DNA from: Pleurocapsa sp. PCC 7327
GTDB lineage: Bacteria > Cyanobacteriota > Cyanobacteriia > Cyanobacteriales > Microcystaceae
Reading direction: 5' to 3'
Length of the DNA: 64,000 bases
Assembly (NCBI RefSeq): GCF_000317025.1
Contig: NC_019689.1
Coordinates: 943,501-1,007,500 of the forward strand
Every line of letters starts with the position of its first letter. The first letter of the stretch is position 1. Position numbers and translations under genes: made by a program. This document shows, one piece after another, positions 33,366-38,625 of the stretch. A model generated the notes under the pieces. It made no database searches and was not told where the DNA came from. It was given only the letters and a program-made list of their open reading frames with translations.

Positions 33366-33713
33366 CTAATTTAAACCGTATAGGCTTAAGAAAAATAAGA
33401 AGGCTAGGGCTAGTCCTCCGAAGATCAAAATATTTTTTTGTCCTGGAGTCAAACGGTTAACACCAAAACCGTAATTGAGATTTTCTTGGAATCCAGAGGG
33501 AGCATTTCTGGCTCCAATGTTGACAAAGGCAGAACGGCTTGCCCCACAGACCGGACAGCGCCAATCGACGGGCAATTCCTCAAATGGCGTTCCGGCAGGA
33601 GTGTTACTTTTACTATCTCCCTTATCTGGCTCGTAAACGTAGCCGCAAGCACGGCATTCATAGCTTGCTAGAGCTTGCTCTGCCAGCGTTTTCTCTACAG
33701 GTCGATCGCTCAT
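33366..33713 (-). CDS. rubA: membrane-anchored rubredoxin
   Basis: A 115-aa protein. The rubredoxin domain has the iron-binding pairs [10 protein letters not shown] and [12 protein letters not shown] linker and one C-terminal membrane helix ([19 protein letters not shown]) follow. RubA acts in early photosystem II (and possibly photosystem I) assembly. It heads rubA-ycf48-psbEFLJ. The 132-bp gap to ycf48 could hold a further promoter. Confidence 0.95.
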
Positions 33714-33840
33714 TGCTAGTACTAAGCAAATCTTAAAATGTCTGTAACAAATTATCGCATATAATCTAACTTTCTTATCTTACTAGGGATTGGTCAGTTG
33801 TCCTTCGTCATTGGTCATAGGTCATTGGGAATTAGTGAGT

Positions 33841-33939
33841 AGTTAGTAGGGGCGGATCAATCTCAAAACGCTAGCGATTTCCCAACAGTTATTGTTAAAA
33901 ACCCGCCCGTACAGTGGTTAGTGGTTAATTGTCTCCCAG
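33841..33939. repeat. 99-bp dispersed repeat, copy 1
   Basis: From AGTTAGTAGGGGCG through AAAACGCTAGCGATTTCCC and CCCGTACAGTGGTTAG to GTCTCCCAG. The reverse complement recurs at 38689-38787 with about 85-90 percent identity by eye. It borders the 3' end of kaiC3. Confidence 0.8.
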
Positions 33940-33957
33940 TCTCCCCGTCTCCTTGCC

Positions 33958-35472
33958 TCACTCCTCAAACAAACCGCTAAGGCGCTCTACCTCATTCTGA
34001 GCTATGTAAATCGGCGCTCCTGCCAGAATTCCAGTCACGTTGCGGAATGGTCTGCCAATATGCATGCCTCGGTTGTCGATCGCAAACTCGCGAATATCCT
34101 TATCGTGCATCGAGCCGCGCATTTTTAGTACTGTAATGCCCCGGCGCATTTCTCCGTACATTTCCACGTAACGCAGCAGGATAATCGAGTCAGTAATAGT
34201 AGAAATGTGTGCCTCTGTAATCGAAGAACCGCCTAAAAGCGTCGGGGTGGTGGACGTAAACAGTCCGCCAATTTCTTTCTGTTTGATAAATGAAGTCAGA
34301 CCAATAATAAATTCCCGAAAGCTTTTGAGGGTGGAAACCCTCTCCAATGCCGAGAGACTGTCTACTGAAACGCGATTGGGTTTAAATTCTTCGATGATCT
34401 CCTTCATGGCGATTAAATGATTTTCCAGGGTAGTCGTTTCGGGATAGCGACAGACAACTTTCAACTTGCCTTCGCGTTCCATCCGCTCGAAATCGACACC
34501 CCAACCGATCGCGTTTCTAAACAATTGCTCTCGGCTTTCCTCAAAAGCAAAAATGAGACACCTTTCCGCACTGTTGGCACCACCTGCCATAAATTCTGTC
34601 ACCATCAGGGTTTTCCCTGTCCCCGTCGCTCCTGAGACGAGGATGATCGAGTCGCGGAAAAATCCGCCGCCGCACATTCTATCCAATTCTTCGCTACCGG
34701 AAGTAATACGGATGTTGGATGATTTCTGTTCGAGTTCGATTGCCGCTAGCGGAATGATCGTAATTCCCCGGTTGCGAATCACGGTAAAAGGAAATTCCCC
34801 CTTTTGGTGGTCGGTTCCCCGATACTTAAGAATTTCGATAGTTCGACGGCGCTTTTCATCGGCAAGGACATTGCGCAAAATAACCACGTTATCTGCGACG
34901 AATTCCTCGACTCCAAAGCGGCTGATTTCGCCGTATTCTTGCGTTCTCTCTGCGGTCATGACAGCAGTAATCTCCAATTCCCGCAGTGCCGATGCCAGCC
35001 TGAACAAATCGCTGCGAACTTGAGCGCTATCGGCTAAGTGGCTGAAAATCGCGCCGAGAGAGTCTAGCGAGATTCGTTGAGCATTGTACTTGCGGATGGC
35101 AAACTCGATCCGCGCAATTAAAGCGCCGAGGTCGTATTCGCCGCTGACCATCGGACGTTCCCCCGGTTGGGGCGAGGCATCGACAAACGCCCATTTTCCT
35201 TCTTCTTCCCATTTTTGAATATCCCAGCCGAAGCCGAGCATATTTCTTCTTAGTGCCTTTGGGGGTTCTTCAAAGGTGACAAAAACGCCATTCTCTCCGC
35301 GCACGATCCCTTCTACGAGAAACTGACAAGCAAAAACTGTCTTGGCACTTCCCGCCGTTCCTGCTACTAAAGTTCCCCGACCTTTGGGAAGTCCCCCCTG
35401 AGAGAGAAAATCGAATCCTGGAATCCCTGTTTCTAATTTCTCGATAAACTCCCGTCCGTTGTTCTGACTCAT
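33958..35472 (-). CDS. kaiC3: circadian clock ATPase/kinase KaiC3-like
   Basis: A 504-aa duplicated RecA-type ATPase (CI about 10-245, CII about 250-495). CII has Walker A GATGTGKT and the adjacent EE pair in AFEESREQL. CI has GTAGSAKT, with Ala where the last Walker glycine is usual, and EE in TFEEPPKAL. The autophosphorylation site is conserved: Ser424-Thr425 in HISTITD. The C-terminal tail that KaiA binds is shorter and differs from KaiC1. Assignment to KaiC3 rests on the KaiA3-like and KaiB neighbours. It is third in the operon, 72 nt after kaiB. Confidence 0.85.
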   Translation of the reverse strand: MSQNNGREFIEKLETGIPGFDFLSQGGLPKGRGTLVAGTAGSAKTVFACQFLVEGIVRGENGVFVTFEEPPKALRRNMLGFGWDIQKWEEEGKWAFVDASPQPGERPMVSGEYDLGALIARIEFAIRKYNAQRISLDSLGAIFSHLADSAQVRSDLFRLASALRELEITAVMTAERTQEYGEISRFGVEEFVADNVVILRNVLADEKRRRTIEILKYRGTDHQKGEFPFTVIRNRGITIIPLAAIELEQKSSNIRITSGSEELDRMCGGGFFRDSIILVSGATGTGKTLMVTEFMAGGANSAERCLIFAFEESREQLFRNAIGWGVDFERMEREGKLKVVCRYPETTTLENHLIAMKEIIEEFKPNRVSVDSLSALERVSTLKSFREFIIGLTSFIKQKEIGGLFTSTTPTLLGGSSITEAHISTITDSIILLRYVEMYGEMRRGITVLKMRGSMHDKDIREFAIDNRGMHIGRPFRNVTGILAGAPIYIAQNEVERLSGLFEE

Positions 35473-35544
35473 TAGTTTCTTGAATAGCGATCGCTTATTA
35501 ATTCTCCGTGCATTTTCTCCTCCTCGTCAATCATTGAGCCACTC

Positions 35545-35835
35545 TCATTTCATCTCCAACTCTTTCGGCAGCAGATCGAGTCCGAGAAGAACTTTTTGAG
35601 TATTCGACATATCGCCGATGATGCGTTGTAGCGGCGGGGGAAGTTGTTTGATCAAGGTAGGAGTGACCAGAATTTTTTCAGCTTCCGCCATGTGAGGCTG
35701 TTCCAAAACATCGATAATCTCGATCGCGTACTGGTCGGCGAGTTCTTCGTGACAGATGCGAAATAAATTGGCGATCGCTCGCTGGGATTTGGGGGAGTTT
35801 CCGGTAATATATAACTTCAGAACGTATTTGCTCAT
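35545..35835 (-). CDS. kaiB3: circadian clock protein KaiB3-like
   Basis: A 96-aa thioredoxin-like fold-switching protein that binds the CI ring of KaiC. It carries VLKLYITGNSPKSQRAI, the ILVTPTLIKQLPPPLQRIIGD core (cited here as ILVTPTLIKQLPPP) and KVLLGLDLLPKEL. It ends soon after that motif and lacks the longer acidic tail of canonical KaiB1. Its ATG overlaps the stop of the upstream gene (ATGA), so translation is coupled. Confidence 0.88.
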   Translation of the reverse strand: MSKYVLKLYITGNSPKSQRAIANLFRICHEELADQYAIEIIDVLEQPHMAEAEKILVTPTLIKQLPPPLQRIIGDMSNTQKVLLGLDLLPKELEMK

Positions 35836-36722
35836 GACTCATTTTCCTGTTCGAGCTGGGGAGAAAATTTAATATTGCTCAAGCCAATATAGTATTTTCG
35901 ATAAAACGAGGTCAGATACCCCATGAGTTCTAAAACCATCAAGCGTCCTTCAGCCACGTAAGCTTGGGCTTTAGCCAGAGGAACGCCTTGATTTTTTTCC
36001 CTCAATGTTTTGGTGTGGATGTCTACAACATCTCTGGGACTGGCTTTGAGGAAGCCCAATTTATCTGCTAAGGCGCGCAAGCGATCGGAGATGTTATGTT
36101 CGACTTTATAGGCGCGTTCTTCTAAAGCGAGATCGAGCAATTTTCCATAAGTTTGCGCGAGTTCCTCAAATATGTCTGGTATGCTTTCTCGCAGGGTTTC
36201 CGATCCAAACATGCGAGCCGTGATACTGGTCTTGGTCGAGTTGGCGCGTCGTTCGAGTTGTTGAAATTCTAGCTCTTGTTCTTTTTGTTGTTGCAAGCGT
36301 TCTAGTTTGGCGAGGTATTCCTGTCTTTCAATGGCTAGGCGGATTTCGTAGACTAGAAAATTGCGATCGAGAGTTTTGGTATGCAAATAGCCATCCGCGC
36401 CTAGCTGAAAGGCTTTAACGACTAATGTTTCATCCTCGCTCTCTGTTTGCAGGATAATTGGCACTTTAGGATATCGCTCTCTGAGCGCTATGAGAGAATT
36501 AATTCCTTTACTGTCAGGCAGCATTAAATTGAGTAAAATGACATCAAAGATTTCCTTGGCTAAGCATTCGATGCCTTGGGAAAGAGTCTTAGCAAAGATC
36601 AGGGTAAAGAACAATCCCTCAGCCAAAGAGCTGCCCTCAGATTCTAGCAGCAATCTCTCAATCAACTTAATGCGATCGCAATTCTCTTCTATCAACAGGA
36701 TTTTACAGAGATTACCGGGCAT
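35832..36722 (-). CDS. kaiA3: KaiA3-like protein: receiver-type domain plus KaiA-like C-terminal domain
   Basis: A 296-aa chimera. Residues 1-125 fold as a response-regulator receiver (KILLIEENCDR, ILQTESEDE, LHTKTLD), but the phospho-acceptor position is Asn65 (LLNLMLPDS). A coiled region (about 135-160, QQQKEQELEFQQLERR) follows. Residues about 180-280 resemble the KaiA C-terminal dimer domain: FEELAQTYGKLLDLA, DVVDIHTKTLRE and LMVLELMGYLTSFYRKYY align with KaiA helices. Synechocystis KaiA3 has this receiver-KaiA architecture and works with KaiB3/KaiC3. It is first in the operon. Confidence 0.82.
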   Translation of the reverse strand: MPGNLCKILLIEENCDRIKLIERLLLESEGSSLAEGLFFTLIFAKTLSQGIECLAKEIFDVILLNLMLPDSKGINSLIALRERYPKVPIILQTESEDETLVVKAFQLGADGYLHTKTLDRNFLVYEIRLAIERQEYLAKLERLQQQKEQELEFQQLERRANSTKTSITARMFGSETLRESIPDIFEELAQTYGKLLDLALEERAYKVEHNISDRLRALADKLGFLKASPRDVVDIHTKTLREKNQGVPLAKAQAYVAEGRLMVLELMGYLTSFYRKYYIGLSNIKFSPQLEQENES

Positions 36723-36959
36723 GCTCTGCTAGTTACCTCGCTACCTAGGGACTAATGCTAATTTCGCCTATTTTTTAGGGTAAACTGATTTTTTAGAGAG
36801 ATTGCGTTCGAGCTAAAAATTAATTTTTTTTGTCAGCACATTTTCGGCAATTAATAAGTTAATAAAAATATAATAGAGATGGCGATCGGATTTTCCAAAT
36901 GTAGGATTCTAATCATTCTCCCCGATCGAGGTCAGCCATAACCGATCGAACGATAGAAT

Positions 36960-38625
36960 ATGAGATAAAAAAGAATTTTAATTGTCGGTGGCGTAGCAGG
37001 GGGAGCCTCTTGTGCAACTCGTTCCCGCCGTCTATCTGAAGAAGCAGAAATTATTATTTTTGAGCGAGGGCCTTTTGTTTCATTTGCCAATTGTGGCTTG
37101 CCTTACTATGTAGGAAATGTCATTGCTGAAGAAAAGAAATTGTTGGTAGCTACTACCGATCTATTTAAGCAGCGTTTTAATATTGAAGTCCGAATTAAAA
37201 ATGAAGTCTTAAGTATCGATCGCCAAAGCAAAAAAATTACGGTCAAAAACCTGACAACTGACGAAATTTATCAAGAACGATACGATGCTTTGGTATTAGC
37301 ACCGGGAGCTTCTCCGATTCGTCCGCCGCTACCGGAGATCGATTTGCCAGGAATTTTTGCCCTACGTACCATCCCCGACAGCCGTCGCATTCGCGATTGG
37401 ATTGCCGAACGTCAAGTCAAACAAGCTGTTGTCGTTGGTGGTGGCTTAATTGGCTTAGAAATAACAGAAAATCTCGTCCATCGAGGCATTGCCGTGACGT
37501 TACTAGAAATGGCATCTCAAGTCATGCCAATCCTCGATCGAGAAATGGTCGTTCCCGTACAAGAGCGTCTGAGAAAGCATGGGGTTCAGTTGTATTTGCA
37601 AGAAGAAGTAACGCAATTCGAGCAACAGGAAAAGAATATTCTCGTTTCGACGCGATCGCAAAAGCAGTATCCCGCTCAGTTAGTGATTATTGCACTTGGC
37701 GTGCGTCCGGAAAGCAAACTGGCTATAGAGGCGGAATTAGAAATAGGAGAAAAAGGCGGAATTCGCGTCAACGAACAAATGCGCACTTCTGACGAGTCTA
37801 TTTGGGCAGTCGGAGACGCAGTAGAAGTACAAGACTATGTTACCAAAGAATGGACGTTAATTCCTTTGGCAGGACCAGCAAACCGCCAGGGAAAGATTGC
37901 AGCCGATGCGATCGCAGGTCGCCCTTCTACCTTTCGGGGCATGGAAGGTACTGCCGTCTGCGGTATCTTTGGGTTAACCGTTGCCAATACGGGAGCTAGC
38001 GAGAAAACTCTAAAACGGCTAGAAATTCCCTATGAGAAAATCTATCTCCATCCCGGTCATCACGTCAGCTACTTTCCAGGTGCGAAACCGATTGACCTGA
38101 AATTGCTTTTTTCTCCCAAAGACGGGCAAATTTTAGGAGCGCAAGCAGTGGGAGAAGAAGGAGTAGAAAAACGTATTGATGTTATATCAATGGCAATTCA
38201 GCGTCACTCTACTGTCTTCGATCTAGAAGAAGCCGAATTGTGCTATGCACCCCAAATTGTGCTATGCACCCCAATTTGGTGCGGCAAAAGATCCCGTTAA
38301 TTTTGCTGGTATGATAGCCGCTAATGCCTTACGAGGCGATGCTCCGATCGCTCAATGGGATGGCTTAGATTTGACCGAAGGCGTATTAGTGGACGTGCGA
38401 GAAGTGGGAGAGTTTGAAACAGGTCACGTCCCTGGAGCAATTAATGTTCCTTTGAGTCAGTTACGCGATCGCCTTCCCGAACTCCCAAAAGATAAAAAAA
38501 TTTTAGTTTATTGCCAAGTCGGTCAACGCGCCTACTATGCTACTCGTATCCTACGATTAAATGGGTTTAATGCTTCCAATTTAACAGGAGGATATAAAAC
38601 TTGGAAAAGTTACCATTTAATGTAG
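36960..38625 (+). pseudogene. CoA-disulfide reductase/rhodanese fusion, disrupted
   Basis: The intact form would be an FAD/NAD disulfide reductase of about 550 aa with a C-terminal rhodanese domain. FAD-binding IVGGVAGGASCATR, the active-site Cys in SFANCGLPYYVG, VVGGGLIGLEI (NAD) and WAVGDAVEV are all in one frame up to 38255. The rhodanese part has the catalytic Cys in VYCQVGQRAYY and resumes from 38275. Two lesions are seen: the ATG at 36960 is followed by TAA as codon 3, and an exact 19-bp tandem duplication at 38237-38274 shifts the frame. Removing one copy restores CYAPQFGAAKDP. Internal starts could still yield truncated proteins. Confidence 0.85.
38237..38274. repeat. exact 19-bp tandem duplication
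   Basis: ATTGTGCTATGCACCCCAA occurs twice head to tail. Nineteen is not a multiple of three, so it breaks the reductase/rhodanese frame. With no base difference between the copies it looks recent, or is an assembly artefact. Confidence 0.95.

Follow-up and report, generated by a model that had tools for sequence, protein, structure and literature searches.

Whether Pleurocapsa sp. PCC 7327 carries the genes for a second circadian oscillator is the question raised by a stretch of contig NC_019689.1 (positions 943,501 to 1,007,500; 64,000 nucleotides, hereafter the window). At window positions 33958 to 36722, on the minus strand, the list of open reading frames places three kai genes side by side in the order kaiA3-kaiB3-kaiC3. 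By analogy with the published Synechocystis proteins, this cluster very probably encodes a second KaiABC-type oscillator in addition to the canonical one. The set is real and correctly named, and it belongs to a type and a gene order that are already known.

Layout of the locus

The locus comprises the following features.
kaiA3, 35832-36722, minus strand: 296 amino acids; receiver domain (residues ~4-135), long linker helix and KaiA-like four-helix C-terminal domain (~182-282)
kaiB3, 35545-35835, minus strand: 96 amino acids; start codon overlapping the kaiA3 stop codon
kaiB3-kaiC3 spacer, 35473-35544, minus strand: 72 nucleotides
kaiC3, 33958-35472, minus strand: 504 amino acids; two KaiC ATPase domains, Ser424-Thr425, P-loops GTAGSAKT (CI) and GATGTGKT (CII)
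upstream region, 36723-37022, minus strand: presumed promoter site, judged by eye to be mostly alike in Hydrococcus rivularis

The three adjacent minus-strand frames are those of the initial annotation, and the overlap that it described for the first two genes is present as four bases, ATGA (GAGTCATGAGCAAA). Gene order, overlap and the short gap before kaiC3 fit a single transcript across the cluster, which would then be an operon. A scan of positions 33700-37100 found six matches to a consensus promoter, not above chance (shuffle mean of 4.3, standard deviation of 2.0), and the terminator scan likewise stayed within the range of shuffled sequence. A 20-codon open reading frame noted by eye in the kaiB3-kaiC3 spacer, ending in TAATG on the kaiC3 start, was considered as a leader peptide and rejected as chance: its first ATG is gone in Hydrococcus, and nothing similar was seen by eye within the 60 nucleotides or fewer before kaiC3 at the other 19 loci.

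Assignment of KaiC3 and KaiB3

The product of the third gene is a double-domain KaiC (Pfam expect value, E, of 5.4e-123) that passes both NCBIfam models for circadian KaiC. In a tree of 45 KaiC proteins, which leaves out partial KaiC reads of shorter loci and short RadA-like matches, it falls inside a KaiC3 group of 30 rows (support of 99/98), consisting of 22 rows linked to kaiA3B3, the window included, and 8 unlinked rows from genomes with kaiA3B3 elsewhere. It stands apart from 12 KaiC1-type rows (97/86), one of which is this genome's canonical KaiC, and from three KaiC2-type rows (100/100). The third gene is thus kaiC3 as judged from its sequence, with class names resting on gene neighborhood, levels of identity, and named Crocosphaera and other loci.

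The conserved Ser-Thr phosphosite that had been proposed for this protein is confirmed as S424/T425 within the motif AHISTITDS; the corresponding sites of Synechocystis KaiC3 are given as Ser423 and Thr424 in the available text of PMC11372060. Ser is invariant across the 45 KaiC rows, and the next residue is Thr in 42 of them and Ser in the remaining three. The CI P-loop, GTAGSAKT (window 35338-35361, minus strand; residues 38-45), is without Gly before Lys, as it is in 29 of the 30 KaiC3 rows (GTAGSSKT in 15, GTAGSAKT in 13 and GSAGSAKT in one). One KaiC3 row retains that Gly (GSAGSGKT), and all 12 KaiC1-type rows have GTSGTGKT. The CI Walker A motif is termed conserved in the portions available of PMC5520375 and PMC6989803, the latter of which reports ATPase activity for Synechocystis KaiC3.

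The second gene encodes a KaiB family protein (Pfam E of 2e-29), which passes one NCBIfam KaiB model (112.1 versus 110 bits) and scores below another, TIGR02654 (103 versus 145.3 bits). As had been noted initially, it is without the long acidic tail: its last residues are LLPKELEMK, compared with REREEKDLEK in the canonical KaiB encoded elsewhere in the genome. A frameshift carrying an acidic tail was unsupported: the C-terminal ends of KaiB3 proteins in relatives are shifted by only a few residues. In the KaiB tree, the window protein and 39 other kaiA3-adjacent KaiB proteins form one group (40 rows, support of 88/87; 88% of bootstrap trees; one change), although the alignment is short, with few columns, and some branches are long. 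This group is set apart from 10 canonical-type KaiB proteins (nine beside canonical kaiA and the tenth, from genome G312, beside a KaiC1-type KaiC), three KaiC2-adjacent KaiB proteins and five KaiB domains in longer frames. The second gene is accordingly classed as kaiB3 by sequence comparison. The same genome (G000, contig C1) also contains a KaiB-like domain (4202069-4202296, minus strand; L010) close to the end of a 266-amino acid open frame. This domain is neither KaiB1 nor KaiB3, and it is also separate from a frame at 4155985 that we take to be SasA-like.

The C-terminal domain of KaiA3

The first gene had been proposed to encode a receiver-KaiA chimera. Its N-terminal half matches Response_reg (PF00072, E of 1.5e-13), and the model of the full-length protein contains the receiver elements. 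Foldseek matches to this model were receiver-containing proteins in the best 50 of 1606, and the C-terminal domain was therefore modeled alone. The model of residues 174-284 (predicted local distance difference test score of 94.4) retrieved KaiA structures from PDB at ranks 1 to 8, with probabilities of 0.97 to 1.00 and a best E of 0.037; no match in PDB reached an E of 0.001. A search of a viral library gave no match at E ≤ 0.001.

The full-length protein had no KaiA match in Pfam at E ≤ 1, and KaiA was the sole Pfam family matched by its C-terminal 148 residues, under the family cut-off (E of 0.066). A profile of 24 KaiA3 C-terminal sequences, that of the window included, placed KaiA chains in the top three positions against PDB (E of 0.0094, 0.022 and 0.025), followed by an unrelated chain (E of 0.34). 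With the same profile, 30 canonical KaiA proteins scored 9.9 to 19.4 bits, 28 of them above the best score of 10.2 obtained with shuffles of these canonical proteins themselves (600 shuffles, 413 of which were given a score). We take the tests summed, structural comparison of the predicted model first among them, to show that the C-terminal part of KaiA3 is homologous to the C-terminal domain of KaiA, so that the proposed chimera holds in both halves. Neither of the two outcomes that would have refuted the initial annotation was seen: the KaiC groups with neither KaiC1 nor KaiC2, and the predicted fold of the C-terminal part is KaiA-like.

The receiver domain of KaiA3

The phospho-acceptor position of the receiver, residue 65, is Asn in the window protein, in contrast to Asp in Synechocystis KaiA3. 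D65 is described in the available text of PMC11372060 as conserved except in Pleurocapsa and Microcystis; because that paper keeps proteins without D65 in the family, the residue is not defining for KaiA3. We surveyed the position in 46 KaiA3 proteins (that of the window, 30 from the named loci of relatives and 15 others), of which 42 rows remained after four identical ones were dropped; six further kaiA3 loci, degraded loci and distant domains were left out. Residue 65 was D in 25 rows, S in 10, N in five, and G and E in one each. Nine of the 17 rows that have lost D65 belong to the Microcystis group, all nine with Ser. On the KaiA3 tree, seven switches between Asp and other residues are required, and well-supported branches force no fewer than five of them; the count does not distinguish losses from regains, and one join of long branches is suspect. 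This survey extends the published remark and does not overturn it.

Given Asn65, the receiver of the window protein is most likely a pseudo-receiver, with a structural or protein-binding role rather than that of a phosphorylation-gated input. The N-terminal domain of canonical KaiA is likewise without a phospho-acceptor.

Canonical kaiABC genes in the same genome

A search of the genome (one contig of 4,986,817 bases) found canonical kaiA, kaiB and kaiC in this order on the minus strand at 4713074-4715523 and no third full-length KaiC. The kaiA3B3C3 set does not stand alone and is therefore an additional system, as in Synechocystis. The two clusters share the A-B-C order, the Ser-Thr pair of KaiC and the family of the KaiA C-terminal domain. 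They differ in that the canonical KaiC and KaiB are each 56% identical to KaiC3 and KaiB3, respectively, that the tail of canonical KaiB is charged, and that canonical KaiA matches PF07688 at an E of 2.7e-64, whereas kaiA3 is not among the matches to that family.

Distribution of the cluster

At all 30 named loci of relatives, kaiB3 directly follows kaiA3 on the same strand, and at 20 of them kaiC3 comes next. The other 10 (seven Microcystis loci, L053, L068 and L069) had no kaiC3 within ~4-5 kb downstream. With starts chosen by script, the overlap of kaiA3 and kaiB3 is exactly four bases at 11 of the 30 loci, and the gap between kaiB3 and kaiC3 ranges from 43 to 550 nucleotides across the 20. 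One locus, L067, has kaiA3 and kaiB3 367 nucleotides apart; among the other 29, the spacing is between −8 and +12 for 28 and 61 at L070. Among the named loci, the closest match was found in Hydrococcus rivularis NIES-593 (L042), which has the same gene order, KaiA3, KaiB3 and KaiC3 proteins that are 93, 100 and 99% identical, Asn65, and upstream and downstream sequences that look alike by eye; its kaiB3-kaiC3 spacer is 132 nucleotides, versus 72 in the window.

The initial annotation had implied that the adjacent set is a special, compact form of the clock. This part of its interpretation was wrong, even though the identities that it gave to all three genes stood up in the trees and structural comparisons. 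According to the available text of PMC11372060 (Köbler et al. 2024, Nat Commun 15:7674), kaiC3 usually follows kaiA3B3, with Synechocystis and Microcystis as the cyanobacterial exceptions, and the novelty of the adjacent set is therefore already published. The same text bears out the initial annotation in that Synechocystis kaiC3 does not adjoin kaiA3B3, and it is with respect to Synechocystis only that the adjoining kaiC3 of the window differs; the receiver-KaiA chimera, KaiB3, KaiC3 and the order A3-B3-C3 are shared with the system described there.

In a sample of 386 genomes of the phylum, 29 matched the KaiA3 C-terminal domain (E ≤ 0.001). Among the 29 are the genome of the window itself, two degraded copies, four domains that form part of longer or PAS-type proteins, and a match in a frame resembling cysteinyl-tRNA synthetase that we attribute to chance. 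The four domains (L037, L038, L039 and L040, in the ~2-Mb genomes G240, G321, G325 and G236) end PAS-type proteins, a call made with Pfam for L037 and by eye for the others. They score 65.6 to 98.1 bits with the KaiA3 C-terminal profile, versus 9.9 to 19.4 for canonical KaiA. None of these four genomes gave a full-length KaiC match (no match in G236, one short match in each of the others), and the domain may be used there outside a Kai clock. The degraded copies (L035 and L036, in the ~3-Mb genomes G268 and G183) are kaiA3 remnants with stops; both genomes retain a KaiC1-type KaiC, gave no KaiC3-type match and may have lost the second clock.

Proposed function and alternative explanations

By analogy with the Synechocystis proteins, which cycle in vitro according to the available text of PMC11372060, KaiC3 hexamers would form and autophosphorylate on Ser424 and Thr425. 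A KaiA3 dimer would bind KaiC3 through its four-helix C-terminal domain and promote phosphorylation; KaiB3 would then bind phosphorylated KaiC3 and counter KaiA3, and KaiC3 would dephosphorylate, giving a phosphorylation cycle of about a day. The receiver of KaiA3 probably cannot be phosphorylated in the Pleurocapsa strain, which would thus have lost this phospho-input.

Several observations weigh against this interpretation. The trees lack named rows of Synechocystis PCC 6803 and are anchored instead by genomes with the split layout, Crocosphaera and other loci. The CI P-loop of the window protein is without the usual Gly before Lys, though this is likewise the case for 29 of the 30 KaiC3 rows. 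The likeness of the C-terminal part of KaiA3 to KaiA is weak by sequence (Pfam E of 0.066; Foldseek best E of 0.037), and its match to KaiA by hhalign (P of 0.003, probability of 10.5) is no better than that of the receiver half to the KaiA N-terminus (P of 0.0043). Two of the 30 canonical KaiA proteins fail to beat the best shuffle with the KaiA3 profile. Finally, Asn65 deprives the window protein of a feature published for most KaiA3 proteins.

A less likely alternative is that the set no longer sustains an oscillation and works as an hourglass or modifies the cell's canonical clock, with KaiC3 phosphorylation answering to KaiA3 and KaiB3 or to ATP/ADP and not cycling alone. The presence of canonical kaiABC in the same genome and a KaiA3 receiver without a phospho-acceptor would both suit such a role. 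All three proteins are nevertheless of full length with conserved sites, the Synechocystis set cycles in vitro, and the close conservation in Hydrococcus argues for a kept function. We consider it very improbable that KaiA3 instead acts in output, as a response regulator sensing the state of KaiB3-KaiC3, and not as a KaiA-like activator, given that it matched no DNA-binding family in Pfam, that its C-terminal domain has the predicted KaiA fold and its phospho-acceptor position is Asn, and that Synechocystis KaiA3 promotes KaiC3 phosphorylation (PMC11372060, available text). The promoter and terminator scans, which gave no more than chance, would be in keeping with three unrelated neighbors that have no common function and resemble a kai cluster by accident; such a coincidence is scarcely credible, being contradicted by conserved synteny, with the same order at 20 of 30 named loci of relatives, by the ATGA overlap and by the co-occurrence published in the available part of PMC11372060.

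A second KaiABC-type oscillator thus remains the preferred reading of the cluster. Somewhat more speculatively, and at slightly less than even confidence, we suggest that cyanobacterial KaiA3 receivers, this one included, repeatedly became pseudo-receivers, with Asp lost about five to seven times, that the second clock would then often run without phosphorelay input and that, together with the Gly-less CI P-loop, its tuning may differ from that of the Synechocystis model. Pleurocapsa sp. PCC 7327 provides an intact two-clock genome with all three kaiA3B3C3 genes together, and beyond that our results confirm published work. Because some relatives retain the D65 that has been lost here, these organisms offer a natural comparison for asking if the second clock is gated by the receiver.
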